In this document: positions 1 to 63,848 of the stretch, piece by piece
Layout: the number at the start of each line of letters is the position of its first letter
How positions within the stretch are numbered: the first letter of the stretch is position 1
NCBI GenBank assembly: GCA_015039465.1
Contig: MU130662.1
Span: forward strand, 282,058-346,057
Reading direction: 5' to 3'
DNA: 64,000 nucleotides
Origin: Phlegmacium glaucopus
Taxonomy: Eukaryota; Basidiomycota; Agaricomycetes; Agaricales; Cortinariaceae
The notes under the pieces: generated by a model
The model's input: only the letters and a program-made list of their open reading frames with translations
The model's database searches: none
Told to the model about the DNA's origin: nothing
Translations under genes and position numbers: made by a program

Positions 1-1556
1 TAGACACCTTTATAACGATACTACTATCTTTCGTGTATAAACTTCTTAATCCTAACGACGGAACCGACGAACACGTAAAGGATGTCACCTAACAGGTGGT
101 CGGGAGGAAAGTTAAAGAAACTTTCTATTTAGGGTTCAGGGTATATGACAAACTAGTATTAGACTACGAGGAGACTTACAACGTAGACTGTACTCTCAGA
201 CTACTACGTTCCTCTTTACAAAGTCTATAGATAACTATAGTGTTAAGGGTCGAAGTTATATTCGTGGTCGTACTAATTGTCGGTCTCCTTACGTCGGTTC
301 GAGTCAGTGTTAGTAAGATCGTTGAAGATGTACGAGTCGACGTAGGTTTGTCGATCGGAAGTCTTCATCTCAATATCGTAGACGAAGGAGGTAAAGTTAC
401 TAGAGTTACGACAAGACTTTACTATACTAGGAAGGGTACCTAGACAAGGATGATCATTACTCTTATAATGGAGAGAATGGACTCCCTTTCTTGAACCGTT
501 GTAGGAGTCCTTCTCCTAGTAGTCGTAATAGTTTGTGGTAGTTGGTAAGGAGAACTTACAATCTATAGGTGACCTCCTGTCTGACTTGACTCGGTAGGTA
601 TGTTCTTCGAACTCGTCGTCCTTATGACCTATAGGGGAACTCTCTGTAACAGTATGAGAGTAGTCTCCTCCGTAGTTGGGTCTTGTGTACACTTTTGGAT
701 CTCGTTCTTTACTTCGGTCAGCAACACTTACCCACTTCTATGAATGAACAGTCTGTAAAGAAGATACTTAAACTCTGTCTAGACCCAGAAAGGTTAAGGA
801 GGGTAAGGGGTCTCCTCTGTTCTCACAGAGTTGTAGTCAGGTGATAGTCGTGGTACTTGTTTTTATAAAGGCTCGACCAGGTCGTGCAGAAAGGCAGGTC
901 ATTTATTACCTGACCTCAAACCAAAGACTGCATGTCCCTAGAAACCGGGAAGGGGTTCTAACCGTCCCTCTTGCAATTGGATGTTATGTGCATTACGATT
1001 TAGTAAATGTGTCATGTGCTTTTTCTGAATGTTTTCACGGCGGTCGCTACTGCTTTAAGACTCGTAAGCGTTTCTTTGGGCTCGATCTTACGACTCAGAC
1101 AACTAGTAGTCCTTATTGACTCTCCTCACCCACACACTCGCTGAGTGTCTTCCTATAAAAAGACTAAGGTATCTAGAGTTCAACCGAACCTAGTACCGTA
1201 GTCCACCCCTCAGAAGATGTGCACGATGTCCGCGTGCCAGTAACTAACGGTTTCACCTTTGGCTTCGCCTCTCAACCGCAAGTACCGGTCAGACTAGCTG
1301 CTATTACTGACATTTATACGGTTGCACGAACCGGTTCAACTTTTGAGTGTCATTTTAATTGTGGTCACCGAGCTTATTGAAGTTCTGAGCGTCAGCGTCA
1401 ACGCCGTGATCACCCCTGCCTACCGTACCCTAATCGCCACAATCAATACTAACGGTAGCTACAGCTTCAACCATCAAGTCGCGAACTTAGTTCTCGTAGC
1501 CACTGCAAGTCTCTACCTATAAAACCAAAGAACTTAAAGAACTTTTCCGCCAAGTA
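1..1556. CDS. NB-ARC NLR protein, N-terminal half (string-reversed part)
   Basis: Exons in window coordinates, read high to low: 1556-1350, 1291-1148, 1097-1032, 979-747 and 697-1; all phases agree. The protein starts MNRLFKKFKKPKYPSLNV, a basic N-terminus. A region with the motif GFFANAQNFVIAGGTF, common before NB-ARC in agaric NLRs, follows at residues ~120-139. Then come Walker A (GMGGIGKT) at ~190, FWVDAS, Walker B (MVFDNAD) at ~255, a sensor-like LITSRNRS and the GxP-type LGCIPLAV, ending ICAFYHHSNISTD. Joined to 2381-3808 the product is about 924 residues without stops, so the gene looks intact once orientation is corrected. NLR ATPases are cytosolic oligomerising sensors; in fungi they are linked to non-self recognition and regulated cell death. 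The ligand is unknown. Confidence 0.9.
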
Positions 1557-2127
1557 CCACGAGCTACGTGTCGCCAGTTTCACTCACTACTCTCCGTTCT
1601 TGTTTCTGCGAGAACTAATATATTCGCGCCCGACACAAATGAGGTCAAGGTGAGGCCAGAAGGAATCCAAAGAGGTAGGTAAGGAGGTTAGTACTTAGTT
1701 TGGTAACGTGGGTTTTGCGTAAAACCTTTCGTCAGTTTCGTTCTTCTTGATCATGTCTGCCTCAGGTCGTTTTCCATGTCCATGGCATCGATTTACTAGA
1801 AGGCTGTCTTACCATGGTCAACCGGTCAGGCTGTAAGTAGGTCGAGTTTAGAACCTTCCGCCGAGATGCATGATGGAAGATTAAGTACTACCTGAACAGA
1901 AGCTCTTTGTAGTGGCTCTGAACAAGAGTAACAAGAAATCTTTCCAAACTCTATTTATCTGTTTCCAAGACGTGCCCGGACGGCACCAACTTCTTATGTT
2001 TTTTCTACGCAATCTTCGTTCTAGATTTTGTACCTTTTACATGCAGCGTCCTTTTCATGTCTTTCGTTCATGACACGGAGAAATGCGGTCTGGCACCAGT
2101 TTTCTACTCTTTGTTCCTATGCTTTGA
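1557..2127. other. Intergenic spacer within the reversed block
   Basis: After reversal this ~570-base stretch lies between the stop codon of the upstream gene and the NLR start codon. It is T-rich just after the stop, consistent with a 3' UTR, and no ORF of note was seen. It would hold the upstream gene's terminator and the NLR promoter, but no individual signal could be pinned down. Confidence 0.5.
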
Positions 2128-2380
2128 AGTTGAGGAAAACCCTTCGAGTTGTAGTCGAAGTTGTGGTTGAAGGAAGAAACCGAATCCAAAGCCAGCTCCA
2201 GATAGGACTAGCAGTTGCAGGTAGTATAGCAGCAGTAGCTGGAAGTGGAAGAACCCGCAACTAAAGCCAAAAAACTTCTTGATCGTCGACTTCGTCTTCG
2301 GAACTCAAACCCAAAGCCAGAACCGAATCCGAATAGACAAAACCGCGATAGAAGTAGGTGTAAGTACTACAGCTGTTGGC
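2128..2380. CDS. 3' end of an unidentified gene, legible only after string reversal
   Basis: Reading 2380 down to 2128 gives the C-terminus of a charged, low-complexity protein. It begins VVDIMNVDEDSAKTDKPKP, passes Ala/Ser- and Lys/Pro-rich stretches, an acidic patch (DDDDMMDVDD), a second KPKPKK stretch, and ends VELPKRS followed by TGA (2130-2128). Alternating basic Lys/Pro and acidic patches suggest a nuclear protein, which is inference only. The two halves are in different frames at a run of six A (2274-2269 region), so one base may be missing or an intron may be hidden there. In the restored orientation this gene lies upstream of the NLR and on the same strand. Its body lies outside the window and no family can be assigned. 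Confidence 0.6.
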
Positions 2381-3808
2381 ATATTCAGATCTGCTGCTGA
2401 GGAGTCCAGGAAACATGTTGATAGTGAGGTAGCTAAAAGGTTACCCCAGGCAATCACTTTTCTGGATCATACTCTGCTTCCCTTGGACAGTGATGGTCAC
2501 TGGGATGACTTTATGTTTGGACAAGGAATTGGTGTCCTTCTCTCATTCTCCTTGATGAAAAGAGGACAAACATCTGAAATGTTGTCTGTTCACCCTTTGG
2601 TGCACTGCTGGAGTCGTGAGAGAATGATTAAATCTGAGCAGCAAAGAATGTGTGAGGTGGGAAGCATAATTTTATCCTGTGCAATTCCTAGGGGATTTAC
2701 AAGTCATGATTATGCATTGCGACGGATGATTTTTCCACATATTAAGGCAAATGGGGTATATGGAAAGCAGATAGGACTGATTGAATATTATGATGATAAA
2801 TGGAGCAATTTTTCACTGGTAATGAATGAGAATGGAGATTGGAAGAATTCAGAGCAACTGGAGGTTCAAGTGATGGCCATGAGGAAGAAAGTGCTTGGTG
2901 CAGATCATCCACATACCCTCATAAGCATGGGAAGTCTAGCAGACACATACCGTAATCAAGGAAGATGGAATGAAGCAGAGCAGCTAGAGGTTCAAGTCAT
3001 GGACATGAGGAAGAAAGTGCTTGGTGAAGATCATCCACACACCCTCATAACCATGGGAAATCTAGCAGGCACATACTGTAATCAAGGAAGATGGAATGAA
3101 GCAGAGCAGCTGGAGGTTCAAGTGATGGACATGAGGAACAAAGTGCTCGGTGCAGATCATCCACACACCCTCACAAGCATGGGAAATCTAGCAAGGACAT
3201 ACCATAAGCAAGGAAGATGGAATGAAGCAGAGCAGCTGGCGGTTCAAGTGATGGACATGAGAAAGACAGTGCTTGGTGCAGATCATCCACACACCCTCAT
3301 GAGCATGGGAAATCTAGCAAGCACATACTGTAATCAAGGAAGATGGAATGAAGCAGAGCAACTGGAGGTTCAAGTGATGGACATGAGGAAGAAAGTGCTT
3401 GGTGCAGAACATCCACACACCCTCATAAGCATGGGAAATCTGGCAGGCACATACCATAATCAAGGAAGATGGAATGAAGCAGAGCAGCTGGCGGTTCAAG
3501 TGATGGACATGAGGAAGAAAGTGCTTGGTGCAGAACATCCAGACACCCTCATGAGCATGGGAAATCTAGCAAACATATACCATAATCAAGGAAGATGGAA
3601 TGAAGCAGAGCAGCTGGAGGTTCAAGTGATGGGCATGAGGAAGAATGTGCTTGGTGCAGATCATCCAGACACCCTCAGAAGCATAGAAAATATAGCATAC
3701 ATATACCATAATCAAGGAAGATGGAATGAGGCAGAGTCCCTGGAGCTTGAAGTCACAAATATAAGGAGCTTGGTTGCAGAGACACATCAACAGGCATGTG
3801 AAATCTAG
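2381..3808 (+). CDS. NB-ARC NLR protein, C-terminal half with kinesin-light-chain-type TPRs
   Basis: This is the correctly oriented remainder of the NLR whose first half lies in the reversed block. Coding begins with IFRSAAEES at 2381. The 34 codons an ORF caller adds upstream (from 2279) belong to the reversed block and are not real. It carries the winged-helix region of NB-ARC proteins (RLPQAIT...LLSFSL...MLSVHPLVHCWSRERM, residues ~15-90 of this part), a linker, then 7.5 TPR units of 42 residues. Stop TAG is at 3806-3808. No intron is visible. The TPRs are the presumed ligand-sensing part. In the usual model the ATPase is held off until the repeats sense a target. Confidence 0.9.
   Translation: MFRSAAEESRKHVDSEVAKRLPQAITFLDHTLLPLDSDGHWDDFMFGQGIGVLLSFSLMKRGQTSEMLSVHPLVHCWSRERMIKSEQQRMCEVGSIILSCAIPRGFTSHDYALRRMIFPHIKANGVYGKQIGLIEYYDDKWSNFSLVMNENGDWKNSEQLEVQVMAMRKKVLGADHPHTLISMGSLADTYRNQGRWNEAEQLEVQVMDMRKKVLGEDHPHTLITMGNLAGTYCNQGRWNEAEQLEVQVMDMRNKVLGADHPHTLTSMGNLARTYHKQGRWNEAEQLAVQVMDMRKTVLGADHPHTLMSMGNLASTYCNQGRWNEAEQLEVQVMDMRKKVLGAEHPHTLISMGNLAGTYHNQGRWNEAEQLAVQVMDMRKKVLGAEHPDTLMSMGNLANIYHNQGRWNEAEQLEVQVMGMRKNVLGADHPDTLRSIENIAYIYHNQGRWNEAESLELEVTNIRSLVAETHQQACEI
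2852..3805 (+). repeat. Seven and a half near-identical 126-bp TPR units
   Basis: Units start at 2852, 2978, 3104, 3230, 3356, 3482 and 3608, each exactly 126 bp (42 codons), with a diverged partial unit from 3734. The consensus unit opens EQLEVQVMDMRKKVLG and closes NQGRWNEA. Differences cluster at a few residues: E/A after EQL; K/N and K/T/N before VLG; A/E then D/E before HP; H/D before TL; I/T/M/R after TL; and the residue pair before Y. Such high identity between units implies recent duplication or gene conversion, typical of fungal NLR repeat arrays with variable copy number. Confidence 0.92.
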
Positions 3809-4011: not shown

Positions 4012-4591
4012 TGTTAAGTTTGAGAACTCTGTTCCGGAGTTTCGGATGGAGTAACGGACAGAGTCACGGAACGGAGTCACGAAAAGGATAGGACTTAGCC
4101 TCAGCTTATGTGCTGTGCTACCCAGAACCTTTGTGTCCTAGATTTCGGAGTAAGACGGAGCAGAGCGGAACTGGAAGTTGCAAAGAACTTAGAGGAAGCC
4201 CAAGAGTGGGAAACTAAGTCGATATTCAAACTGAGGAAAACATACAAGTTTCGAGTACTTAAATATAAAAGGAATAGCATCCAAAATATAAAATATAAAT
4301 ATAAATGCTGCGTTCTGCTCCCGGAAGGTCCTGCATTCTTGGGGTGAATAATCCATAGCTGGTGTGCTGACTGATAGTGGGAAAGTGATGACAAAGAAAT
4401 AGTTGTTATGGTGAAGGTGTGGTAATGGGTTTGGAGTATCGTCGGAAGAGTCGGAATGATATGGAGAAGTCTCGGAGTTGGATGTAGGAGGAGTGGGACC
4501 GGAAACGAGGGAAAGTACTGGAACGGAGTACGGACTTCCGGAAACAACTCCGACGGAGTCGGACCGGAGTAACATATGACGGAATGTAACA
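4012..4591 (+). mobile_element. Solo LTR, family A, copy 1
   Basis: The block starts TGTTAAGTTTGAG and ends GGAATGTAACA, flanked by a perfect 5-bp duplication catgg (4007-4011 and 4592-4596). Related copies lie at 21587, 36507, 42534, 46987 and 49143. A TATAAAAG box sits near 4263. There is no internal coding region, so this is a solo LTR left by recombination between paired LTRs. Minus-strand ORFs across it recur in other copies only because the DNA is repeated. The strand assigned follows the end that reads TGTTAAG. Confidence 0.9.
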
Positions 4592-9403: not shown

Positions 9404-11803
9404 TGATATGATTGAATTTGCTTTATATGGTAATCAAAGGATTACTATTTTAGGAATTGTCTACAACAAATCCAGAAACCAGTAACTTTTAATGACCAAC
9501 AAACTCTGTTTTTGTGCAAGTTGGGGCTGCCTTGGAAGTATAACCAGTACACTCTTGAATAAAACAGCAATACACTTTTAAAGTCCAAATTGTTCTAGAC
9601 TATGATTCAAGTTTAAAGTCCAAATGTCTCTACATCAGGAAAAATGACTTGTGCCCTAGGCCGTCCTGAAATGTCCTGGGGTGCCCCAGGCAGCTCAGGG
9701 CGCTCAGGTCAAGAGGTCGCCCTGGGGTGCAAGTTACCTATGTATGAAAAGTCTTAGGCTGTCCTGGGGCAACCTGAGGCAACCTGAGAGCGTCCTGAGG
9801 CAACCTGAGAGCGTCCTGAGGCAACCTGAGGCAACCTGAGAGCAATCCTGAGGCAACCTGAGAGCATCCTGAGGCAGCCTTAGTCCCTTTGGATCTGATG
9901 CTAGAAAACATATATAAACCAGATATTTGAGTGGTCTCACACAACAGAATAATAATAATAACAATAAAATTATATTCAATTATTCTAAACATCATATATA
10001 CTAGTAATAAAATAATAATAAAATAGTGATACATAAATATACTAGTATAATACTGGGGAAGTAGGAAATAAGAAAACAAAATTGTGGGTGGTTTATATAT
10101 CTTTTGGATGGCGCACAGACCATTGGTCACATGATCACAGATAAGCATGATTTCAAGCATATGGTGCTGGGTCAGGGTAGATTACATAAATTCCAAAAAA
10201 GGAAATTTTTTAAAGATGGTAGAGAATTGTTTTAGGACCCTGAATATGTTTAAATTATATTAATAGCAGCTCTCCTTATTGAGAAAACTGCAAAATACTT
10301 TCCTGGACGCGGTGGTTAAAGATTTTCTAGCAAAATTCATAAATTCTAAGGGACTCCCAGGGCCTCCTGATGTGATTTGGTCCAGATGGTCAATGCACCA
10401 GGATACACTAAAGGTGTCCTGAGAAAATGGGTGACACTCAAAATTTTACCTGTGCTGCTCTAGGATGTCCTGAGGTGTCCTGGGGTGTCCTGGGGTGTCC
10501 TGGGATGTCCTGAGTAGTGATGTGATACTAACAAATTACCCAAGGCTACCTAGGGCCAAAATCATTTTTCCTGATGTAGACTATGATTCTGATAACAAGT
10601 TTATAGTCCAATTTCTTAGACTATTATATAGTGCTTTTTGATAGAACAAAGGCAAGTCCCTATAGGATTTAATATCCTTTGTCTATATGATAACCAATTT
10701 TGGTAATTCAAAGACAAGCCCCTTTAGGGTTTAATATTCTTTGACTATCCACAACAAATGATTTAAAGTCCCAAAGGCAGACTATGAAACAGCTTTATAG
10801 TACAAGGATTTCTCCTCAGACTCTGACAAAGGATTTAATATCCTTGCTTCCAAGACAAGTCCCTAAAGGATTTAATATTCTTGGTTTACACAGAACAAAG
10901 GTAAGCCCCTTTAGGATTTAATACCCTTTGAACTGAGTGAAGCAAAGCAAGTCCACTTGTAATTCCAATTCTAACTTGTGCCAATTCAGAGCGCTGAAAC
11001 TTGGGAAAGAAAGGAAGAGTGCAAATTCACTAATTTTACTGGTGCTTTCTAGTTACTTTTATACATAAATGAGAAACAAAATTAGGTAAGAGTCTGTGAT
11101 GTCATGTCTATGTTTTATGATTACTGATGATTTTATGATGTCATGTCTTGTTTTTAGATGATAAATCATTGTTTTATGATGTCATGTCTTGTTTCTAGAT
11201 GACTGATCATTGTTTTATGATGTCAGGTCTTGCTTCTAGATGATAAATCATTGTTTTATGAGGTCATATGTTTCATAATGTCACATTGTCACAATTGTGA
11301 CAAAAATGTTACAAAATGTTACAAAATGTCACATATGTCACATGATGTCACATGATGTCACATGGTATCACATGGTATCACATGGTATCACATGATATCA
11401 CATGCTTCATTATTGTAGGACCTTTTATTGATATTTTACTTACTGATGTTATCCTTAGGACTTGTATAACAATCCTTCATAGTTGTAGACTTGATAGTTA
11501 CTTTAGATTGCAAGTAGTTCATTTGACCATTATGGATTTTTGTATGGTTAGAGTCTGAACTTTTTGTAGTGTTATTTAACAGTATGATAAATAGATCAAT
11601 TCAGATCATAGTTATCTGCTGCTTTAACATTTAATACTATGCAATTTCCAGTTTAATCAACAAGTGTAGTCACCACTTTTGACCCTTACAGTATCAATTT
11701 GTAGATTAATTCATGGTTTTATCATTGATCTTTTTGATTCAATTGAAGAATAATATTATGAAAAATTGAATAATCCATAGGTATTCAACTTTCAGTCCTA
11801 TCA
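9404..11803 (-). mobile_element. Solo LTR-like insertion with TGAT...ATCA ends (copy R)
   Basis: This is an inverted homologue of 4617-5976. On the plus strand it starts TGATATGATTG and ends GTCCTATCA. Flanks are gcat (9400-9403) and gtgt (11804-11807), both one CpG change from gcgt, the duplication of copy L. After removing the nested TIR element (9633-10576 plus TA) it is ~1.45 kb. It sits in the LINE 3' UTR. It contains expanded ATGATGTCATG and CACATGGTATCA words (11090-11400). Confidence 0.78.
9633..10576. mobile_element. Non-autonomous TIR element with GTCCTG-word arms, copy 1
   Basis: Terminal inverted repeats CATCAGGAAAAATGAC / ATCATTTTTCCTGATG, flanked by TA on both sides (9631-9632, 10577-10578), fit a TA-target DNA transposon such as Tc1/mariner. 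Length is 944 bp. The left arm (9660-9890) is a tandem of GTCCTGAGGCAACCTGAG words; the right arm (10455-10515) repeats GTCCTGGGGT. The AT-rich core has no convincing protein. It lies within LTR copy R. The second copy at 17327 is nearly identical, so both moved recently. Confidence 0.85.
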
Positions 11804-11881: not shown

Positions 11882-12386
11882 TCATCCCACAAACCTGAGT
11901 AGCTCGCTCATACCGTCCTTGTTGGACAGTATCGCTCGAAGGTCTCTTGATTGACGCCCCAATTTGGTGTCCAGCGAGTGTCTCTCGTAGTCGTAGCTGG
12001 GACATTCGAATAGAAAGTGGGTTACTGTCTCGGCAATGTCGACATGCCTGATGTTCTTGCAACTAGTGCAGTACTTGGTGTTGGCTTTCCCAATGCGGTT
12101 GAGGTAGGCCTTAAGCGGCAAGTGGTTTGATCGTATCTGGAATAGGAGGCTGCACTGGGCCTGTGTGAGCCCATGCTGCATCGACCGGAACTTGTCATAG
12201 GGAAATCCAGGGTCTATCACCTCCATCCTACCCCTTCTCGGCGACGCTGCCCATTTCTCCTTCCAGTCCGTCCTGAACTTAGATGCCATCTGCTCCTTTA
12301 ACAGCTCCGCGTTTAGAGGCAGGCATCGTCTGAGTGTCTTTGGGAGATGCGTGGTCAGTGAGGTCAATCCATTAGCAGCTAGCCGT
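11882..12386 (-). pseudogene. LINE ORF2, C-terminal region with CCHC-type motif
   Basis: Read on the minus strand from 12386: YQRLAANGLTSLTTHLPKTL, a basic segment, then KYCTSCKN...HFLFECPSY, the zinc-binding end typical of fungal and insect LINE RT proteins, and the stop near 11882. The N-terminal residues that an ORF call adds upstream of 12386 come from the LTR fragment, not the LINE. Minus-strand 3' UTR follows to 11808. Confidence 0.8.
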
Positions 12387-13175
12387 TGATACACTGTCAG
12401 TACGCTAGGTGCTGTACTAACTGAGGTGTGATGCGGCTCGGGGCTTCGGTGGCCTAAACACTGAGTCAAGTGTATGCAGAAAGGTTCCAACTAAGGTAGG
12501 GCGACGGGATATGAGATGAGCGAAATGAGGAGCGATGTAATGACAAAAGGGCGACGAAGTAACGAAGTGGCGACGCAGTGACGAAGGGGAGATGCAGTGA
12601 CGAAGGGGGCGACGCAGTGACGAAGTATAGTCGCTGTATGGGCGACTCGCAGTAAAACGCAATGAAACAAAGGTGAACGACGAGAGAGAGACAATGACAA
12701 GACTTAATTCTATACTCTGGGGAGAGGGGCGAATACTTTCTTATTATCCTTTGTAACTAAATTACAGGAGGTTTTTATAGTAGGTAGAGGAGATCACATG
12801 GCTAAGTTGCACATGTGTATCTATAAAACAAATCAAAACGATGAAACAGGAGTCCAAGAGGGACTAGGCAAAATGGGGAGACAAAACATCAGGGATAGTG
12901 GGCGATAAATGAAAGAGGACCGGTCGTCGCTCCGAGGGCCGGCAGGAGACATGTGGTATAGAGAGGCGATCAAGGAGCGATGGTAGATGTATCAAAAATA
13001 AAGGAAACAAAGTGTTTGAGGTAACCGAAGAGAAATAAAAGAATATAAATGATCAGCGACCCAAAATACCCAATGGTGTTAAGGAACTTCTCGATCCGGT
13101 GATTGTCGCTGGATAGGGGTGACTGGTAGGGTAGCAACGACGATTCGACACAGAACGATTTGGTGTAGCGTAAGG
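12387..13175 (-). mobile_element. Fragment of LTR-like family E inside the LINE
   Basis: This block is the inverse of 40693-41478 with high identity. Its end at 12387 (TGATACACTGTCAG) is a true element terminus, flanked by ccgt (12383-12386). The other end at 13175 is a break, where LINE RT sequence resumes. On the minus strand a TATAAAAACCTCC box lies near 12779-12767, followed by a region of GTCACTGCGTCGCC-type repeats (12530-12630). Confidence 0.8.
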
Positions 13176-14040
13176 ATCAGGCAGAAGTCTACCTTTTTCG
13201 ACCATCCACATGATGTTTTCCACCAATATGGCTGTAAAGACTTTACCCATTGTGCAAAGCAGCGCAATTGGCCTATGAGCCTTTGGGATTTCGTAGTTGG
13301 GTTTCCCCAGTTTCCGTAGTACAATAGTCGTGAACTCCTTCTAGGAGTCGACATATGTTCCCAATCTAAGCGCACCCTGGTAGATTTGCATAAGATATTC
13401 CTCTATGATGTCGACCGTCTTTTGAAGAACAATGTTTGGTATGCCGTCCGGGCCGCTAGCTTTGAACGGGGAAAGCCTGTTTATCTGCTGATGTAGCTGA
13501 TGTTCGGAGATGGGAGGTGGGTCTGGTAATGGGAGCGGGTAGTCAAAACCTTCTGGTACCGACGATTGCTCAGGCTTGGGAGGAAAGAATAGCGATGTTA
13601 GAGCTTTCACCTTATCTTCGTTTGAGCTGGCCTCCTTGATGGAGCCATTGTCAGTTCTGACTTTGAGCGTCGGTATGTGGGACTTTCCACCATCGCCTAC
13701 CGGTTCTCTGAGGTATCCATTGGCCGTCCAGAGATTGTGGTCCACTGCTTCTTCTAAGAAGTTGGTCCAGTGCTGTCTCTTCGCTTCAATGATGGCTTCA
13801 CCATACTCTCTTGCCAAAGTTTTTCGTTCCTCGTGGCAAGGGTGGTCAGGCACTGCTCTATGCTTCATACATGATCTACTTAGCTGGTTCACCCGTCTTT
13901 TGAGCCGCTGTAGGTCACCATTCCACCATCTTTTTGAGTAAGGACATGGCTTGTTGACCCTGATCTTCTCCTGTATTGTCTTCTGTAGGACTAGGGTGAG
14001 ATCTGTTGCCGCCTGCTGTAGCTCGTTATCCGATACTAAG
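13176..14040 (-). pseudogene. LINE ORF2, N-terminal part of the reverse transcriptase
   Basis: After the frameshift the frame reads PYSKRWWNGDLQRLKRRVN, then the RT opening FKASGPDGIPNIVLQK, LGTYVDS, a TAG stop where Trp is expected, and FTTIVLRKLGKPNYEIPKAHRPIALLCTMGK (spread over 13220-13345). It breaks off after EKGRLLPD at 13176. Everything from there to the C-terminal zinc region is missing, including the catalytic FxDD motif, and is replaced by part of an LTR. Deletion must have taken both LINE and LTR sequence. Confidence 0.85.
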
Positions 14041-14973
14041 AAAGAAGGTGGGGGGGATTCCTGTTAGGTTTTCTTGGAGCTGCTCTCGAAACACTTCCCA
14101 GTCAGCTATTCTAAAGTTATAAGAGGGCTGTACCACCGTTCGTTCCTGTGGAATGTCAATGATCATGACTATCGGAAGATGATCAGTGCATGGTGGTTGA
14201 AGGAACGCGTCAATGTCACAGCGCCTGACATGGTTTATCAAGCCCTCACTGCACCAGACGTTGTCCGGTCTTGTGTAGCGGTTCGTTACCATATGCTTCA
14301 ATGTTGACAAACCTTTTGGCAGGGCCATCACCATGCCTTTGTCAGCGACCAGACGGATCAGTACCTCTGCATCCCTCAGAGCCTGGGGAGTGAACAGCCG
14401 GTCGTCCTCATTGTTATCCCATAGCGGGTGATGTTGGTTGAAGTCTCCTCCCCATAGAAGCATGTCGCCGTCATTGCTCAGTAACTGTTGTCGCTCCTCG
14501 TGAATAAACCGCTTCAACCGCGAGAGCGATCTTGAGTGGTTACAATCGTTATAAATGTTGAAAATTGTGAGTCGGCCGTCTGAGGTTTTAATTTGGATTG
14601 CTGTAATGTTGTTATTGCCGGAGATGTTTAGGGCCTTCCAGGAGTTCATAGATAGTTTGCTGTTAACCCAAATAACTGATTGCAGCTGTTCCGTGTTTTC
14701 GAGGTATCTGTCCTGGGGTGAAATGTTTGAGAATCCGTTTGGCGTCCTCATGTGGCCTAGAGCTGTAATATAAGGTTCTTGAATTAGTAGAATGTCCCAG
14801 TGGTCGCCCAGAGGTCCATTTATTAGGTCGAGGTGGGCTTTCTGCGAGTTGTTTAAATTAAGTTGAAAAATCCGTAGTCTATTCAGCGGCTGTTCCTGTA
14901 CTCTGTTCATGTAAAGGATGGGGGGGGGAGAGACATTTTTGTCAGCGAACATGGGGAATGCAACAGGGGACAT
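14026..14973 (-). pseudogene. LINE ORF2, apurinic-endonuclease-like domain
   Basis: The frame starts MSPVAFPMFADK and shows the exonuclease-endonuclease-phosphatase motifs in order: FQLNLNN (Asn), LLIQEPY (Glu), WGGDFNQHHPLWD (Asp and Asn) and CTDHLPIVM (Asp-His). The domain nicks target DNA for target-primed reverse transcription. It is uninterrupted to about 14040, where a frameshift in a C-rich run (GGAATCCCCCCACC on the coding strand) separates it from the RT part. The shift makes ORF2 a pseudogene. Confidence 0.88.
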
Positions 14974-14990
14974 GTAAGATAACGCATTGC

Positions 14991-16611
14991 TTAGCTGAGT
15001 TCCGACGGGCGCAAACCAACTTGGTGGAGTTCTGCCTGTGCGTTCGGGTCCTGGGTGGAACCTCCGTCTTGCTGAGGTCTTCCTTCCATGGGTTGTGCCT
15101 TTTCAAATCTTAGCTGTTGCTGCCTGAGTTGCTGTGAGCCCGTCTTGGTGATTAGCGGAGTCTGCTCCCTTGGGTCCGGGAGAGCCCATCGCTCCTGCCT
15201 GGGTGGTTCTGAGGCCCAGGTCCAGGGCTCCTGCGAGGGGTAGAATGGGAGGCCGTTCTCTGGATGCTTGAGATCGAACTCCCTGCATTTCCTTGCGAAA
15301 GTGGGGCAGCTTCTCGCCCAGCTTGGATGGCCATTGACGCCGCATGAAACACAGTGCTGCTTATCCGGGTCTAGGCAGTTACTGGTTCTATGGCCTTCCT
15401 TACCGCAGGTGCCGCAGATGTCTGTTTTCTTAACACATTCCGCCGCAACATGATTCCAACCCTGGCACTTGAGGCAGCATATAGGCTCCTTTTTGTACTT
15501 GGCGACCAATACCCGTTTGCTGCATATTATGAGTCCACCTGCTTTTGCCCTGTTAGCTGCGTCTGGGTTAGAAAAGGTCAGCACCAGGTGTCCGCATGTC
15601 TGCGTAGCCCTCCGTCTATTTGGCGGCTTGGCCCATCAGATTTTAGTCAGGTCTCCATCCTGCATCCCATTTACCTCCTCAATTTCCGTGACGTGATCTG
15701 AATTTGCTGTGTTGAGGTGTAACAGGACGTAGTATGCAATAACGGGGTGGCTCCGCTTCTTGATGCAGGCACCTCGACCCAGGGTACCTAGAGCTGTAAT
15801 GAAGTCGTCAAACTTGTTCTGTTGGGCAAACCACTTAGCCCCTTCATCCGTGAGGAATTCGCCTAGTAAGCCTTTATTTGCCAGCTGTTCCACAGACTGG
15901 ATCCTGTGGACTGTAGCGCTGCCTCCAGCCCCAACAATAGCCTCGTTGAACCTTTTGACGATATCAGCTTGGCTGAGCTCTCTCGTATCCGAATCCACAG
16001 GAAAGTCCAGGAGGAACTGTCGAGCCTGCTAGAATCCTTGGGTCAGCGTTGACCGGGGCCGGATTGTTGCTGAGGAGGGCTTCTTTGTACGTCTTGGACG
16101 TGGTGGAGGCGAGTCCCTTCATAGCTTCAGTGACTGTGGCTAGATGCTTACCCATTTCATTCTCCATTGTAGTGAGGAAATGACCTGTTAACGTTTTAAG
16201 TTCATCGTTCATGTATGCCAATTGGTCGTTCACCGCGTCTCTAGCCTTTGCGGCTATTGCTTCCTCCTCCATTTCGTCTAACATGTAAGCTGCTGCTTGT
16301 ATGGCCTCGACCGCCTCTCTTGGTATCTTATCGATCGCTGCTATCTGGTGTAGAGTAGCTGCCAAGGTCGTGGTGGTCACCGGATGACCCTCTGGTACGA
16401 AGAGGAGCCTTTTTTCCAAGAATCTTCTAGCAGCTGCAGCGTTGTCAACCACATTAGGCTGGGAGTAGTCGATGATGGGGGAGGGAGTCCGTATGTTTGC
16501 CTCGCTACCGTCCCTTGCATTTGTGAGGGCGCTTCTATTATGTGTCACTGGTATTTTTACTTTTTTCTGTATGGTTTTGCCCGACATCAGTGTTTTGGGT
16601 GCGAAGTTCAT
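14991..16611 (-). pseudogene. LINE ORF1: gag-like protein with three zinc knuckles, frameshifted
   Basis: From ATG at 16611 (MNFAPKTLMSGKTIQKK) the frame runs to ~16025, where one base change shifts it to the frame of 15998-15636 (DSDTRELSQADIVKRF) and again to the frame ending at 14991. The final part has three CCHC knuckles: CLKCQGWNHVAAEC, CGTCGKEGHRTSNC and CVSCGVNGHPSWARSC, followed by a Gln/Pro-rich tail. LINE ORF1 proteins bind element RNA and act as chaperones in the RNP. Two frameshifts make this copy non-functional. Confidence 0.85.
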
Positions 16612-16659
16612 CTTTAATGACGAAGATTAAGGGGGGTATTTGAGTAAAGATAAGCTACC

Positions 16660-17324
16660 ATATGGAAGATTACTACACGCTCTCTTGTTGTCCCAGCAGG
16701 ACGCGCTTACCTTACCAGTTTGGAATCCATGCTCGGTCTATGTAACGACTGTCCTTTCATTCCATACTCACCAGTTAAGGGCATCACTTACGAGCTCGCT
16801 TGGTGGTCCTCAAGACTTTCCCAACCTGTCGTCTCCAGACCAATTCCTGAGCTAGTCTCCCTCATCAACCTCAATGCCTTCTCAGATGCAAGTTCTGGCA
16901 TCGGCATTAGCATCGTCATCCAAGGAAAATGGAGAGCTTGGCGCCTCATTCTGGGCTGGCAGACCCTTGATGGCTCATGAGATATTGGATGGGCCAAAGC
17001 AGTCAGTTTTGAACTTCTCATCAGGACCATTGCACGGTTTGTTGGTGTTAGCGGACACTTTAGGGCATACAGTGACAACAAGGGAGTCGTCGAGGGGTGG
17101 CAAAATAATAGAAGCAAGAGCAAAACTATCAATGGAGTATTCCATCGCATCCACTTATTCCTCGAAGACTTTGGATATGCTTTCTCTGTTCACACAGCCT
17201 ACGTACCCAGTAAGTCCAACCCAGCAGATCCTCCTTCAAGAGGTATCTACCCCCCCCGGCCGAATTGCTCCTACCCAAGATCCATCTCCCATCTGATCTC
17301 AACAGGTTCATTATTGACTCTACC
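16660..17324 (+). pseudogene. DIRS RT C-terminus and RNase H
   Basis: Joined to 8967 the coding frame continues KLYGR-LLHALL, shifts by one base just after, and gives VVPAGRAYLTSLE, then INLNAFSDASSGIGISIVI (RNase H first Asp), FELLIRTIARFVG, AYSDNKGVVEGW (DNK, second Asp), and AYVPSKSNPADPPSRG. The order fits the RNase H domain of DIRS elements. A stop near 16978 (GS, stop, DIGWAK) breaks the domain. The gene is then interrupted by the TIR element at 17325. Confidence 0.85.
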
Positions 17325-17326
17325 TA

Positions 17327-18272
17327 CATCAGGAAAAATGACTTCTGCCCTAGGCTGTCCTGAAATGTCCTGGGGTGCCCCAGGCAGCTCAGGGTGCTCA
17401 GGTCAAGAGGTCGCCCTGGGGTGCAAGTTACCTATGTATGAAAAGTCTTAGGCTGTCCTGGGGCAACCTGAGGCAACCTGAGAGCGTCCTGAGGCAACCT
17501 GAGAGCGTCCTGAGGCAACCTGAGGCAACCTGAGAGCATCCTGAGGCAACCTGAGAGCAACCTGAGGCAGCCTTAGTCCCTTTGGATCTGATGCTAGAAA
17601 ACATATATAAACCAGATATTTGAGTGGTCTCACACAACAGAATAATAATAATAACAATAAAATTATATTCAATTATTCTAAACATCATATATAGTACTAG
17701 TAATAAAATAATAATAAAATAGTGATACATAAATATACTAGTATAATACTGGGGAAGTAGGAAATAAGAAAACAAAATTGTGGGTGGTTTATATATCTTT
17801 TGGATGGCGCACAGACCATTGGTCACATGATCACAGATAAGCATGATTTCAAGCATATGGTGCTGGGTCAGGGTAGATTACATAAATTCCAAAAAAGGAA
17901 ATTTTTTAAAGATGGTAGAGAATTGTTTTAGGACCCTGAATATGTTTAAATTATATTAATAGCAGCTCTCCTTATTGAGAAAACTGCAAAATACTTTTTT
18001 GGACGCAGCGGTTAAAGATTTTCTAGCAAAATTCATAAATTCTAAGGGACTCCCAGGGCCTCCTGATGTGATTTGGTCCAGATGGTCAATGCACCAGGAT
18101 ACACTAAAGGTGTCCTGAGAAAATGGGTGACACTCAAAATTTTACCTGTGCTGCTCTAGGATGTCCTGAGGTGTCCTGAGGTGCCCTGGGGTGTCCTGGG
18201 GTGTCCTGAGTAGTGATGTGATACTAACAAATTACCCAAGGCTACCTAGGGCCAAAATCATTTTTCCTGATG
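17327..18272. mobile_element. Non-autonomous TIR element with GTCCTG-word arms, copy 2
   Basis: Near-identical to 9633-10576, with the same CATCAGGAAAAATGA ends and TA duplication (17325-17326, 18273-18274). It is inserted in DIRS coding sequence: removing it and one TA joins LLTLPT to PTVLQNS in frame, which proves the borders. The word arrays differ from copy 1 by a few units. Confidence 0.88.
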
Positions 18273-24745: not shown

Positions 24746-26890
24746 TTAGATCGCCAGTTTAACTTGATTGGAAAATACCGATCCTTGCTCCCGAAGCGCG
24801 GTCTCTATCACTTGCATCCCTTCCAGCACCTTTTCTTCTTCAAGTCTCCTGCCGACTACCTGTACACCAAGTGGTAGGCCATGCATCTTTTCGACGTTAT
24901 ATACTGAAAAAGCGGTCTTGGCAACGGCGTTGTAAGACTTGTAAACTTCGGAGTGGATAAAGTCTTGTGGGAGGTCGTCAACTGTTTTGTCGACAAAGGT
25001 GACTGGGAGTACGCCGGCAGTGTAATCGAGCTATTTTTCAAATGGTCAGCGATCAGTTGGTCGAAACAAAAATACACCACAAAGAATAGACAAAAAAACT
25101 TACCAAATTGAAAAGGAGCGTATAACTGGCGCTCGTGAGAGTCGTTTGTTCAGAGGTACCATTTTCCAACGCTGGGAATGAATGAGGCACCGTCAACACA
25201 AAGTCTAAACCTTCCTCCGTCCATTTCCTATGCCATTCTTCCCTATATAAATCTCTTGCTACAATCGATTCGCGATCTTGGGCAGCAGTTTTTGTATGCA
25301 TTATACCATAGAGTTGACTAGCCATAGGGTCGCTCGAACGAACGAAGAAAGCGAGGATCTTCTTGATGAGTCTAGGTAGTTGGAGAAGATCTAGGATTGA
25401 CTGGGCGGCTGGAGAGATCGTTTCGTTGGGACTTAGAGCGTTTATAATTTGCTGGCCTGGATGAGAATAAAAAAGATAAATTTCAAATTCATGGAAATAC
25501 ATCGGAAATCGGCACGTACCCCCATCAGAGAAGAGAAGCTGATATCCGATTTTCAACCCTTCCCAGATATTAGGAGGTTGGCTAAGTGAAATTGATATGA
25601 ATACCAGGAGAATGACGCAGTTAGACTGCCAACATACAAATCGACGACTTCATGGCCTTGCTTTTTCAGAGCCGAAACCACTTGCTTTAAGGCACGTTTA
25701 CAAGCAGGTGTGGGAGGGATCGTGCCTAGTACCGATGATTAGCGAACCATTTTAGAAATACAGTCACGTAAATCGATTACCATCTTCCCAAATAACCCCC
25801 CATTTCAGTTTGCGACCTTCGTCTCGAAGGTTGACATGTTGCCAAGGTAAAGGAACACACTGTCGGAAGTTTGTTTTCAAAAGGGAAAATGCAAAGACCA
25901 AAAATGTGAGAAGACTTACGGTATGATCGTATTGCCATGGCTTTGCCAAAATGACGCGCTTCGAAAATTCATGCAAGTCCTCAAGATTACCTGCCAATGG
26001 GGATGTCACAATCGGTAAACCTTCCAATCCCATCATGGACGACCCGCTGCCCCACATTGGAAATCGTCCAGCGCTAGCTCTTAAACTCCACACTCCACAG
26101 AAATGTGCAGGAATCCTGACACTACCACCTATATCTGTTCCAATCTCGATTTTACTTCCACCACATGCTACCAGCGCGCCGCCTCCTCCTGTAGAGGCGC
26201 CGGCGGTATGGTTTGGGTTGTAAGGGTTGGTAGTGCGGCCAAAGATATCCGAGACCGTCTCGATGGCGAGCAGACCGGTGGGGACGGTAGTTTTTACGTG
26301 AATTAAGGCACCTGCGTCTTGAAGTAGGCGTACTATTGACGACGAGGTCGCCGATGGACGTCCAATATTACGAGAGTAACCAATTGTGGAATCATAACCT
26401 TTGATGTCTACCGTGTCTGGATGGATAGGGTTTAGTTTACACATATAGTTTTGAGTAATCTCGGCACCTTTGATGCTGACGGGTACACCCATTAGAGAAC
26501 GTTCGCAAGTAGGATCGTTCATGGAGTCGATTCCTGGTCCCCAGTTCGCAACTGGAGGAATGACGAGCGATTCTTCAAACATGATTTCTGTAACGCAGTT
26601 GGTAGCTTTTTGAGCAACGAGAGTTTTCTTTGCGTAAGCCATCATGATAGCTGTAGGTGAAATGGCGCCCGAGCGACATTGAGATACGAGTTGAGAAATG
26701 GAAAGAGCGTGGATTTTTTCTTCTGAAAAGGAGAGTGGTGTGGAATAAACGGCGGGGAGGGAGTCAATTTTTGACTGGCGCTCCCTTTGCTTCCAGGCGC
26801 TAATTCAACTGTTCAGAGCATGATATAAATCGAATTGTAAAGAGCTCACCATGCACGCTGATGAGCAGAAGGTGAAAAAGAGAAAATCAT
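24746..26890 (-). CDS. Amidase-signature hydrolase (fungal acetamidase type), seven exons
   Basis: Exons: 26890-26850, 26799-25920, 25859-25781, 25725-25638, 25581-25520, 25456-25104, 25030-24746. All introns are GT-AG and the frame closes at 595 residues, TAA at 24748-24746. The start MIFSFSPSAHQR lies in a short first exon; its choice is the weakest point. The triad is intact: Lys in GVPVSIKG, cis-Ser in AGASTGGGGAL and nucleophile Ser in GTDIGGSVRIP. The GYDSTIG motif is present, and the C-terminus has TFVDKTVDDLP and MHGLPLGVQVVGRRLEEEKV. Such enzymes hydrolyse carboxamides to acid and ammonia, often as cytosolic nitrogen scavengers. The substrate cannot be read from sequence. It is one of three apparently intact host genes in the window outside repeats, and no regulatory site is evident. 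Confidence 0.93.
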
Positions 26891-56025: not shown

Positions 56026-56427
56026 TGTTACGAACTTTCTTTTCCTTTTTCTTATCTCCACCAAACACATGCCTGTTTCACATACACACACACTATGCTC
56101 TCTTTTCATCCCCGCTCCACATGCTTTCCTTTCTCTTTTCATATGTTTCATCTATTCTTACACATGCATACCCTCTTACATGTGGACGTTTCACCTATCC
56201 ACAACTCTCTTCTTTTCACTATAAATACATTATTTACTACTCAATGTAATGGTAGCTAATTCTTGAGAATCTACTGCTGGTTGCTCTACTCTCGAACTTC
56301 CTCAAACTCCTAAGACTCTGCTTCGAGAACTATCTCTTAGTACTCTTTTGAGCTCATTGAACAAATGAACAATCTCTTATATGACTGTTTACAGCCAGAA
56401 GCCTCTGAACCGTTCGAAGTTGTAACA
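56026..56427 (+). repeat. 5' LTR of the Ty3 element
   Basis: TGTTACGAACTTTC...GTTGTAACA, 402 bp. TATAAATACATTATTTACT at 56220-56238 is a probable TATA box and transcription start region. It differs from the 3' LTR at about 15 positions, nearly all C/T or G/A and many at CpG, so age estimates from it would be inflated. Confidence 0.92.
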
Positions 56428-56622
56428 AAAGAATTAGCTACAGTATTCCTACATGCTCTCTTCTTAGAAGCGTTGGTTATAACTAGCCAAATCCAAAACC
56501 GAAACACCAACAAACCAACCTGAACGAATACTGTGAAAAGTTAAATACTTGATCCAGTATAAGAAGATAGAGCAAGGACTTCTACACTTCTAAAAACAGA
56601 CGAATTGAAACCGAACAAAACA

Positions 56623-57633
56623 ATGGCTGGAGAATCATCTACCGCTCCCCATATTCCGAAAGAGTTAAACATCAACAAGCCGATGCCCTTTTCTGGCGAC
56701 AGATGCAAAGTCAAAACATTTCTCTAAGAATGCAAAATTTACCTGTCTGTCAACGACAAAGTCTACTTCACCGATGGCCCGAAAATTGCATTCATCCTGT
56801 CCTTCATGAACGATGGAGAAGCAGGTCAATGGAAAGAAACCTGGATCGACAGCATTACAAATGCAGAAGGAGACATCGTCCTCCCAACTCTTGCCACCTT
56901 CTATGAAATCATCGCTGAACAATTCAAAGAAGCAAACCGAACCCAAGATGCGATGCACAAACTGACCCTCCTGAGACAAGGAAAGAAGTCAGCTGAACAA
57001 ATTTCCACCAAATTCTCCCTGTTAACAAGACAAGCTGGACTTGAAGAGAAAACCAAATCAGACAACCTCCACTTAATCCACATGTTCCGAAAAATTCTGA
57101 ATCCATCCCTGACACGAAAAATCTTGCTATCCCTTGACGTCCCCATGACTATCAAAGGCTGGAAAAACAGAGCGATTCAATACAATTCACAATACCAATT
57201 CGCGATGGCAATTTTGTCATCAGAACAACTGAACAAGAAACCCTATGACCCAGTATACAGAGAAGAGAAACCAAAATACGAAGGAAGAAATTGGTCCTCC
57301 AACAACAGACAAAACAACCCAGACGCTATGGACGTCGACGCAATGAGTTACGAGAAGCGAGGAGAATACATGCGAAAAGGCCTGTGCTTCAAATGTGATG
57401 GGCCCGGTCACATTTCCAGAGACTGCAAAGAGAAGAAGGGAGGATACCAAGGGAACAAAAGCCAAGGATCCTCGAACTACCGAAACAACCAGAAGAAACT
57501 CTCAGTCAAAGACATCCATTCCTTGATCAAAGGATTATCTCGAGACAAACATGAAAAACTCGCCAACCTTCAACTCAGCATCAACGAAGATGAAAAGATA
57601 GTAGAAGTTGATGACCATGAGGATTTTCAATGA
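56623..57633 (+). pseudogene. Ty3 gag (capsid and nucleocapsid) with one in-frame stop
   Basis: Starts MAGESSTAPHIPKELNINKP at ATG 56623 and ends at TGA 57631-57633. A single TAA at 56725-56727 interrupts an otherwise open frame where Gln would fit (CAA to TAA). The capsid-like part contains KETWIDSITNAEGD and a helical segment; the nucleocapsid knuckle CFKCDGPGHISRDC (57385-57426) is a CX2CX4HX4C motif. Gag forms the particle and binds element RNA. The pol ATG lies in ATGA overlapping the gag stop. Confidence 0.9.
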
Positions 57634-60600
57634 GGAGAACTGAATCAATGTCAGTTTCTCCCACGCTATCCATATCTAATTGCTTAGTACCTCGTTTAAA
57701 TATTCACCGAATGAAAATACCTATTTCTATAACGAGTGAAACGCAAGAAGACCCGGAAATCATCGAACAAGCCTTTATCGACTCTGGTGCAGACGGAAAA
57801 TTCATCGACCAGAATTTTGTGTGAACACAAAAGTTTACGATCAAAACCTTAAATGTTCCCATCAAAGTTTTTAATGTTGACGGTACCCTGAACAAACGAG
57901 GCACGATCAAACATTATGTAAACCTCGAGATCAATGTACTTGGATGAAAGAAGATGAACCGACTTTTAGTCACTGGATTAGGGAAACACAAGATTATTCT
58001 TGGAGCAACTTGGCTCAAAGAAAACAACCCTGAAATAAACTGGAAGAAAGAAACTCTTACATGGCGCAAACCCGAACAAACAAAAGAAGAACAACCACGG
58101 AAACCGATTTTTAGGACACCCTCTACATCTACTACTGTTGAAGACGAAGACGATATTGAAGAATATCTTAATCGAACACAGAACCCCACCGACGATGATG
58201 AAATATCAGTACTCGTCGCTTTTATCACTGGCGAAATGGACAACAAATATTGGATCAATGCGAAAACATCTGCTTCACAAAATCTGGCTATGAAATATGA
58301 CATCAAGCCTGATATTCCTGTCGAAGAAATTGTACCACCCGAGTATCATGAATACTTAGATGTATTTGATGAGAAGAAGGCGGACAGATTCCCCGAACCA
58401 CAAACCTGGGATCACAAGATCAAAATGAAACCTGATTTTGAACCGAAATCTTTCAAAATGTACAACCTTACACTGGCAGAACAAATCGAACTGGACAAAT
58501 TCCTTAAAGAAAACCTCGACCATGGTTATATTCGGAAATCACGATCTCTGATGGCCTCACCCTTCTTCTTTGTATCCAAGAAAGATGGAAAACTTTGACC
58601 TGTCAAGACTATCGATATTTGAACAATCACACGATCAAAAACACTTATCCACTCCCACTTATCACCGAGATCATGGACAAACTCAAAGGCGCAACTTGTT
58701 TCACAAAGTTTGACGTCCTAAGAGGTTACAATAACATCCGGATTGCCAAAGGAGACGAATGGAAAGCTGCTTTCAAGACCAATCAAGGATTATTTGAACC
58801 GACAGTAATGTTCTTTGGAATGTGTAATTCACTGGCAACATTTCAAGCAATGATGGACTCCATTTTCGAAGACCTTATCAAAGGCAACTATATCATTGTA
58901 TACATGGATGACATCTTAATCTTTGCAAAGAATGAAAAAGATCTCGAAGAAATTACGAAGAAAGTCTTACAACGTCTACAGGAAAACGATCTCTATTTGA
59001 AACCAAAGAAATGCAAATTCAATAAGAAGAAAGTTGAATATTTAGGAATGATCATTGAAGAAGGCAAGATCTCCATGGACCCAACCAAACTTAAGGGTAT
59101 CCGAGACTGGCCGACCCCTACATCTGTGAAAGAAGTACGATCCTTTTTAGGATTCAGAAACTTTTATCGACGATTCATCTGACATTTCTCTGACCTATGT
59201 CAACCGTTGAATAATCTTTTGAAGAAAGACACACCCTTCGAATGGACCAACAAATGCCAAGAAACATTCGAACTCCTGAAACGACGCTTTACTGAAGAAC
59301 CAGTTTTGCGAATGCCTGATCCAACCCGACCTTTCCAAATCGAATCTGATGCTTCGAAATATGCATCAGGCGCAGTCCTTACACAAACAGACATGAATGG
59401 AGACCGACACCCTGTAGCTTTTCTATCAAAAAGTGTTTCCCCTACTGAACAAAACTACAAAATCTATGACCGTGAACTTTTAGCAATCATACGAGCTTTA
59501 ACCAATTGGAGACATTATATCCTTGGATCTGAACACACAATGACAGTCTATTCTGATCACAAGAATCTGACTTACTACAGAACTGCACAGAAATTGAACA
59601 GACGACAAGCTCGATGGTCACTATTCCTTTCAGAATTCAATGTCAATCTCATCCATTTACCCAGAAACAAAATGATTCAATCTGACACTCTATCCCGACG
59701 AGCTGATCTTTGTCCCAAAGATGACAACAACAACGAAGACATCACGATGTTACCTGATTCCTTATTTGTCAATCTAGTCGACCTTGATTTACAGGAACAG
59801 ATCGCCAACTCCACTGACATAGACACCGACGCCGCCGATGCCTTACGCTCTTTACTCGAAAAGGGACCTTCTAATTAACAAAGTGACCTTGAGGACTGCT
59901 CAACCGAAGAATTTATGGGAAAACCTATTTTATTCCACAAAGGGAAGAACTACATTCCACAGAATCGAGAACTTCGTCAAAAATTAGTCAAACAATTCCA
60001 CGATGCACCAACCGCAGGACACCCAGGGGAATTAGAAACATACAATTCAATCTCTCAACATTATTGGTGGCCTGGGCTTCGCACTTTTGTGAAGAACTAT
60101 GTGAAGGGATGCTCTGATTGTCAACAATTCAAGATCAACAGGAACCCATCGAAACCATTGTTTTTACCAATAGAAGGACCAAAAGATTCTAGACCTTTTG
60201 CGAACTGTTCAATGGACTTGATCACAGATCTACCACCTATCGACAGAAAAGACGCTGTACTGGTCGTGGTCGACCATGGGCTTACAAAGGGGGTGATTCT
60301 TATCCCTTGTGCAAAAACCTGTACTTCCGAAGACATTGCTCAATTTTTGCTCGAAAACCTCTACAAACAGTTCAGACTCCCTGACAAGATGATCTCCAAT
60401 AGAGACCCTCGATTCACCGCCAAAGCCTTCGAGAACCTTTTCAAATTGCTCGGAATCGAACACGCGAAAACAACGGCCTTTCACCCTCAATCCGACGGAA
60501 CAACTGAACGTTTCAACCAAGAAATTGAAGCATACCTCTCGATCTATTGCTTTGACAACCCAACGAACTGGTTATCTGCTCTACCCACACTCAAATTCAC

Positions 60601-62553
60601 TCACAATAACCGAAGACACTCTGGAAGAACACAAACTCCTTTCAAATTGATCATGGGATCATCCCCAATCTCCATCCCTCTTTCATTTGAAAACACACAA
60701 TTCCCTGCCGTTGAAGAACAAACACGGAAATTAATCAAAGACCGAGAAGAAGCTCTGGCAGCACATGAACTAGCAAGACACCGAATGGAAAACAGGATCA
60801 AATCGAACTTCAAACCATTTTGTGAAGGACAACTAGTCTGGTTAGACTCCAGAAACTTAAAAACGAATTACAACAAAAATATCGCACCACGAAGAGAAGG
60901 ACCATTCCTTATCAAAAAAGTCCTTGGACCCCTCACTTACCGATTGAAACTCCCTGAAACATGGAAGATTCACAATGTCTTTCACACATACCTCCTCATG
61001 CCCTACATTGAAAACAAAGTACATGGACCGAACTTTCTGAAACCTCCTGCTGAAATCATCGACGGAGAAGAAGAATATGAAGTCGAAGCCATTATCAGAC
61101 ATAGAAAACGAGGATGCTGATATGATTTAAATCTGCATAAGCATGGTTTTTGCAATTTTTATCTATTATTTCAGCATAAATATTAATTAATGCACCAATA
61201 ACTGGTTAATACAACTGATAATAAACAAGGGAATCAGAGTTGTCTACCCTACAACTGCTGATTAGACCTATTACTGTGTGACTTAAATGCATATAGTTAA
61301 TAAGTGTGGTCAATAGACTATCATTTGTTACACTACAAATTGCATGTCTGGATTAAAACCAATAAATCCATGAATATCCTTATAGACTTGGCACAGGAAA
61401 AGTTAAATAAACAATATTGGGTTAGCAAATGTCATGGGGTGTGATTTTGGAGCAACAGAATATTATTAATAAATATTCAGGGGAAGTTGGTGCCCTAGCA
61501 ACAGTGGAAGCAGAATAACCAAGATAGTGGAACCATGTGATTGTGTGGGAATCATGATGATTAAGGATAGGGGGAGTGCTGAACAATCATAAAGATTGTT
61601 TCCAGGCACAATAGGCACAGTTCCCACCAAGAGGGGTGGAAACTACCTAAAATTAGGAACATGGGGCTAAAAATAGAACAACCCCTATGTTTCCAGGAAC
61701 AATGAGTGCACATGGTGCCAGAACCAAAGTAAGGGTACCAGGAACCAGTATATCTATTTTTGGACATTATCTATTTTTAAATATCTCAAATGTATAAAAT
61801 ACCTCCCAGGGTTTGTAAATAGTCAGAAAATTGGATTCTTTCTTTCCCCCCCTCATTTGCAACCTAGTACAGCTCACTGTCTTAGACATTGAGCAAGAAC
61901 ACTTGTCTTTGAGTAGTGGACTTGAAAATAAATCAGTTTCTCAGAGTTGTTTGACTTGTTGCAATAATTGTTGAATTGTTGTAAAAGTTGTTGTTGTGTT
62001 AAAGTCATAGCAGAAGCAAGAGGGCTTCTTGTGTATGCAATTGTGTTAAAGTCATAGCAGAAGTTTGAGTCTTCTTGTGTATGCAATTGTGTTGAAGTTG
62101 TAACAAAGTCTTGGACTTTTGTGTACACAAATTGTAAATCAATCAGTAAAGTCTTAGGAATTCTTTGACTGATTGTTGGTGCAAGCCATAAATTGCAAAA
62201 CCACTTAAAAGTTTGATCATCCTTCAATTGATCCAAATTATTGTTGTTGTTGTGTGTATTAGTTGAAGTGAATTTCAAAGTCTTGGAAAGGTTATACTTT
62301 CTAGAAAACCCAACTTGCATTATTAAGATTGTATAAAGTATTGATTGAGTTATTGTTTTGAGTAGAGATTTTTATAATCTTGAAAATGCACCTTTTCTCA
62401 ACAACCTCTGTGCAGTTACATCAACGCGGATACCAATTCAAAATCCGATGGAAAGATTACCCGATCTCCGAAGCAACGTGGGAACCGGAGTCACACATCA
62501 AAAATGCGGATGACACGTTGACACTTTATAAACAAACCCATCACCTCAATTAG
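57630..62553 (+). pseudogene. Ty3 pol: protease, RT, RNase H, integrase, split chromodomain
   Basis: Protease motif FIDSGADGKFI (~57775); RT with PFFFVSKKDGKL, then after a 1-base deletion near 58598 TCQDYRYLNNHTIKNTYPLP and catalytic YMDD (58901-58912); RNase H FQIESDASKYASGAVLTQ; integrase zinc region (H...H, CSDCQQFK) and DDE-like core SMDLITDLPP, ISNRDPRF and DGTTERFNQE. In the second catalytic motif Asp reads Asn (AAT 60398-60400). The chromodomain starts EVEAIIRHRKRG (to 61113), is cut by an insertion (61118-62423) and resumes GYQFQIRWKDYPISEATWEPE, stop TAG 62551-62553. In-frame stops: TGA 57822, 57945, 59180; TAA 59876. Integration targeting through a chromodomain is typical of chromoviruses. 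Confidence 0.9.
61118..62423 (+). mobile_element. Solo LTR-like insertion with TGAT...ATCA ends (family N)
   Basis: Starts TGATATGATTT and ends GCAGTTACATCA, flanked by atgc (61114-61117) and acgc (62424-62427). Excision restores the Ty3 chromodomain frame KRG-RGYQFQIRW. It shares patches with copy L (GGTTATACTTT, CCAACTTGC near the right end), so N and L are related families. AT-rich, no coding capacity; it contains (TTGTTG) runs near 61975 and 62235. Confidence 0.83.
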
Positions 62554-62568
62554 AACAGCTTCGAAAAC

Positions 62569-63435: not shown

Positions 63436-63446
63436 AACGGGGGCAA

Positions 63447-63848
63447 TGTTACAAACTTTCTTTTCCTTTTTCTTATCTCCACCAAACACATGCCTGTTTC
63501 ACATACACACACACTATGCTCTCTTTTCATCCCCGCTCCACATGCTTTCCTTTCTCTTTTCATATGTTTCATCTATTCTTACACATGCATACCCTCTTAC
63601 ATGTGGACATTTCACCTATGCACGACTCTCTTCTTTTCACTATAAATACATTATTTACTACTCAATGTAACGGTAGCTAATTCTTGAGAATCTACCACTG
63701 GTTGCTCTACTCTCAAACTTCCTCAAACTCCTAAGACTCTGCTTCAAGAACTATCTCTTAGTACTCTTTTGAGCTCATCAAACAAACAAACAATCTCTTA
63801 TACGACTGTTTACAGCCAGAAGCCTCTGAACCGTTCAAAGTTGTAACA
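63447..63848 (+). repeat. 3' LTR of the Ty3 element
   Basis: TGTTACAAACTTTC...GTTGTAACA, also 402 bp, no length change against the 5' LTR. TATAAATACATT at 63642-63653. Confidence 0.92.

Follow-up and report, generated by a model that had tools for sequence, protein, structure and literature searches.

A block of sequence reversed without complementing at the edge of an N run in the Phlegmacium glaucopus genome assembly

Ordinary inverted mis-assemblies are reverse-complemented, and reading the other strand undoes them; inversions are common near repeats. Like such assembly inversions, the block described here is a piece near a gap whose order is wrong; unlike them, it is not restored by reading the other strand. 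A second point of comparison is the patching of gaps with long reads. According to the available part of its description, PBJelly closes gaps or, where a gap cannot be closed, extends the neighbouring contigs into it, and the reads average 2-3 kb (PMC3504050). Excerpts of PMC7550596 describe hybrid assemblies made with ALLPATHS-LG and patched with PBJelly, and the paper names the present species, as Cortinarius glaucopus; an excerpt of PMC12923307 reports PBJelly patching in another JGI-annotated fungal project. The blocks reported below lie at or near runs of N, as would sequence that PBJelly adds at the edges of open gaps or uses to fill closed ones, although its description, in the part available, reports no reversal, and the error is ascribed to PBJelly by us. 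The third comparison is with fungal NLR-type receptors (background in the accessible part of PMC10197012). Once un-reversed, the gene at this locus shares with them numerous TPR repeats and an NB-ARC domain that clears the Pfam cut-off; Pfam found no N-terminal effector domain here.

We analyzed a stretch of 64,000 nucleotides (the window; C228:282058-346057) from a genome that spans 60.5 Mb and 259 contigs. Residues 1-155 of a protein labelled Phlegmacium glaucopus match C228 at 99%, and the adjacent pieces match at 78-96% in a search that ignored introns. An earlier note, made from these letters alone, had claimed that bases 1-2380 are reversed without being complemented. We fused each of the four transforms of the block to native 2381-2900 and aligned the products to seven paralogous loci from this genome (the top matches after the window itself, among 94 matches listed), using the plus strand and the best alignment per paralog. 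We found that the bare reversal, together with the native DNA downstream, aligned to all seven paralogs in a single best alignment running through 2380/2381, with identities of 84.8-92.5% over 2,184-2,238 columns (L011 and L013 92.5%, L014 91.2%, L012 89.2%, L015 88.9%, L016 88.3%, and L017 84.8%). The remaining three transforms gave best plus-strand alignments that began at 2380 or 2381 in every paralog, and the block as given, read on both strands, produced no alignment to the seven paralogs starting left of 2380. A breakpoint scan of 22 positions (2370-2391) favored 2380 by far (725 of 840 letters summed over the seven paralogs, with 571 for the runner-up). Among the four transforms, bare reversal alone restores homology in place, the un-reversed block continues the contig where it stands, and the claimed interval proved exact to the base. 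Because reversal leaves base composition and simple repeats intact, weak matches to genes can arise by chance; identities in the range seen here, over more than 2,100 columns and in seven of seven paralogs, make chance resemblance virtually inconceivable. Searched genome-wide as given, the block had nine short matches, of which one was itself, two lay on the same contig, and six lay on other contigs; we read these eight non-self matches as further reversed pieces. Rfam and tRNA scans of the window found nothing.

How such a block could have arisen was in part foreseen in the earlier note, which had excluded an inversion in the living genome and had left an artefact or a deliberate edit. Despite the frequency of inversions near repeats, its exclusion of a real inversion holds: the reverse complement gives no match across the block and, to our knowledge, the joining of antiparallel strands cannot, as a matter of established chemistry, yield a reversal without complement. 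We regard a real inversion as extremely unlikely. An edit made deliberately after extraction, as a planted test, would account for a block that begins at window base 1 and looks arranged. However, when we compared the window with the whole-genome contig, the letters were identical wherever compared (282058-287000), and N directly precedes the window (all 8,058 bases fetched to the left of its start are N). Because the genome contig has identical letters directly after N, the reversal is present in the assembly and was not added to the window. Further blocks of this kind, both on other contigs and beside or close to other N runs, also speak against an edit, which we consider very improbable. 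Thus, of the two origins that had been proposed, the artefact stands, since the reversal recurs beside or close to other gaps of the contig and in other parts of the genome, and the edit falls. On the identity of the genome contig and the four-transform alignments, we rejected all three alternatives: chance resemblance, inversion in vivo, and intentional editing. We conclude that window 1-2380 is a data error and not a biological feature.

Table 1. Positions of the reversed block and its gene in the window, and of the flanks on contig C228 that score for reversal
Feature	Position	Strand	Length	Composition score	Remark
Block reversed without complementing	window 1..2380	.			directly right of N run on contig
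Junction of reversed and correctly stored DNA	window 2380..2381	.			breakpoint scan
5′ half of predicted NB-ARC/TPR gene	window 1..1556	.			readable only as reversed string
Predicted exons	window 1556-1350, 1291-1148, 1097-1032, 979-747, 697-1				reversed string; start codon at 1556
Stretch coding for presumed Walker A (GMGGIGKT)	window 785..808	.			reversed string
DNA upstream of gene, reversed too	window 1557..2380	.			read backwards, matches DNA upstream of paralogs
3′ half of same gene, correctly stored	window 2381..3808	+			TPR repeats, stop codon
High-copy repeat piece, correctly stored	window 4182..4591	+			genome-wide probe for reversed blocks
Reversed flank	left of C228:80520		837 nt	68.9 bits	
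Reversed flank	right of C228:84882		675 nt	30.9 bits	
Reversed block	left of C228:153587 (151784-153166)		1,383 nt	149.7 bits	
Reversed flank	right of C228:191767		2,403 nt	68.8 bits	
Reversed flank	left of C228:252751		717 nt	65.0 bits	
Reversed flank	window		2,377 nt	165.7 bits	

Read backwards, the block supplies the part of a predicted gene that the correctly stored DNA lacks (Table 1). The longest of six in-frame models runs from the ATG to the stop codon at 3808 and comprises 924 residues with four introns, each with a GTRAGT donor and a YAG acceptor, in a single frame across the junction. The model bears out both the start codon, donors, and acceptors that had been described as in phase and the in-frame join at 2381. 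On the un-reversed gene, Pfam scored NB-ARC at 33.8 bits (cut-off 23.5) and TPR_10 at 357.5 bits (cut-off 27.5); the TPR repeats in the 3′ half are 42 residues each, with a spacing of 126 nt. The NB-ARC score confirms the NLR similarity claimed for the reversed string, and the Walker A reported there could be located (GMGGIGKT, which we take to be this motif). The description of the whole reversed string as the 5′ half of an NLR gene was right in part: an NB-ARC/TPR gene is present, but its 5′ half takes up window 1-1556, and the remaining letters (1557-2380) are upstream DNA, likewise reversed (read backwards, they match, for example, paralog-upstream DNA at C228:77035-77717 with 86% identity). 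Pfam gave no match at E 0.01 before residue 165, where an N-terminal effector domain would lie, and none on the three frames searched among those open in the block as stored. We saw nothing unusual in the gene itself, which in its true form is likely an ordinary receptor-like gene of the NB-ARC/TPR type and a member of a large family.

The window also holds sequences of other kinds. Direct repeats at window 9630-10298 and 17324-17994 (97-100% identity, about 7.7 kb apart) resemble the termini of a young mobile element. At window 56026-63746, repeats 7.4 kb apart (97%) flank frames that, by eye, resemble gag-pol of an LTR retrotransposon, and minus-strand frames at 11885-16626 resemble, again by eye, a LINE-type element with zinc knuckles. 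An amidase-like sequence lies at window 24962-26804 (minus strand), and further amidase-like copies occur on the same contig at C228:61060-61736, 107880-109279, 228011-229474, and 247259-248875.

Homology was not used in a second line of evidence, a fifth-order composition model of the contig. The model sets the switch in the window at 2375-2377, near the homology breakpoint, and its score for the window block (165.7 bits) compares with at most 14.6 bits in 60 random 3-kb stretches. Base composition is an independent sign of reversal in the window block. We scored 18 flanks with this model, namely the 16 flanks of the eight N runs in C228:1-200000 and either end of the N stretch that precedes the window. 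Six scored for reversal, at 30.9-165.7 bits, and the other 12 reached at most 6.6 bits (block lengths in Table 1 are those at the score maximum, except left of 153587). Five of the 18 flanks, the window included, are reversed right up to N; in the sixth, left of 153587, 420 correctly stored letters (153167-153586) separate the block from N. We infer that the N runs are assembly gaps, because they are linked with reversed blocks.

Alignments within the genome gave a similar picture for several of these blocks. The reversed reading matches correctly stored DNA at 92-93% left of 80520, at about 84% left of 153587, and at 85-89% right of 191767. As stored, the block left of 80520 has a sole non-self match, which is the reversed block of the window; for that left of 153587, the best four of 119 matches cover the 420 correct letters; and the block right of 191767 has no match outside itself. 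Un-reversing these three blocks in place gave longer alignments, which run through the junction over 1,318 columns at 95.1% (left of 80520), over 902 columns at 81.4% (right of 191767), and, in one paralog, over 1,705 columns at 79.9% (left of 153587). The flank right of 84882 has no non-self match in either reading, and its assignment comes from composition (30.9 bits). Segmentation of 264 kb by composition, with an input that excluded the flank left of 252751, recovered four of the six blocks, including that of the window; the one right of 191767 came out shorter, the flank right of 84882 was missed, and none of the reversed segments that it detected lay apart from N runs. For C228:1-200000, we estimate that 5,298 of 160,449 called bases (3.3%) lie in reversed blocks.

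The flank left of 252751 lies at the other end of the N stretch that precedes the window. There, 716 of 719 letters, ending at the first N, equal window 408-1126 as stored; the 134 letters preceding them match the reversed block at 95.5% in correct orientation, and C228:250780-251559 matches it at 99%. Overall, C228:250780-252750 (L038 being 251900-252800) and window 1-2380 are near-same sequence, at 95.5-99.6% in the pieces compared. The two sides of the N stretch, as seen at its two ends (outside 252801-273999), are nearly the same sequence, each with a reversed edge. They may overlap in reality or may be near-identical copies; the N stretch may accordingly be a spurious gap or may hide near-identical copies.

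Reversed blocks occur on other contigs as well. With the repeat piece listed in Table 1 as probe, the reversed string gave 59 first-look candidate places and the forward string 1,145; with the gene piece 2381-2850, the counts were 8 and 231. The resulting reversed-to-forward ratios of 3-5% are rough, as at most 40 candidates were scored per search. We inspected 40 letters at each of seven block ends, from six places on other contigs. Two of these, on C141 and C227, coincide with the first N; the other five, on C151, C209, C49, and C41 (two ends), do not. At C49:125674-125713 (L043), a reversed block gives way, with no N in between, to sequence judged by eye to be correctly stored TPR repeat. 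A reversed stretch of conserved 16S rRNA had no match in prokaryote genomes, a search that had no forward control, included no fungi, and says little about how general the error is.

We postulate that, when a gap-patching program added a piece at the edge of N, it very probably completed only half of the reverse-complementing, and we infer that the program was PBJelly. Either a piece placed on the plus strand would have been reversed and left uncomplemented, or a piece for the minus strand would have been complemented and left unreversed; the stored letters would be identical. Blocks that touch N would be extensions into gaps left open; those bordered by correct sequence toward the gap too, such as the block left of 153587 and perhaps that on C49, would stem from gaps that patching closed. 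Choosing PBJelly presumes that this genome is one of the hybrid assemblies. No reversal error in PBJelly is described among the literature matches listed, and the available parts of two comparisons of gap fillers (PMC6733440 and PMC8848313) report no such reversal. The stored letters do not reveal a program, and a step other than patching could also have caused the error, for instance scaffolding, polishing, or a custom script that cut the sequence up and joined it again; the five block ends on other contigs that are not at N, and the C228 block that lies 420 letters from its N run, would fit such a step. Against it stand the contact with N of five of the six scored C228 blocks, the finding of none far from N in the 264 kb segmented, and the block sizes of about 0.7-2.4 kb, which fit pieces from early long reads. 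We judge a non-patching step unlikely and retain a half reverse-complement during gap patching as the explanation.

The interest of the locus lies in the data error, its extent, and the ease with which it escapes ordinary searches; the gene beneath is likely ordinary. It is conceivable, although we hold it to be somewhat doubtful, that a once widely used gap-patching step left half reverse-complemented pieces across a whole class of public genomes. Such pieces stay unseen because ordinary searches read only the two real strands. Reversed letters break genes and put sequence that belongs to no organism into k-mer and language-model data. A simple test is to reverse the letters of a common repeat and use them to search an assembly, and, if the same is true of other genomes patched alike, many records would need repair.
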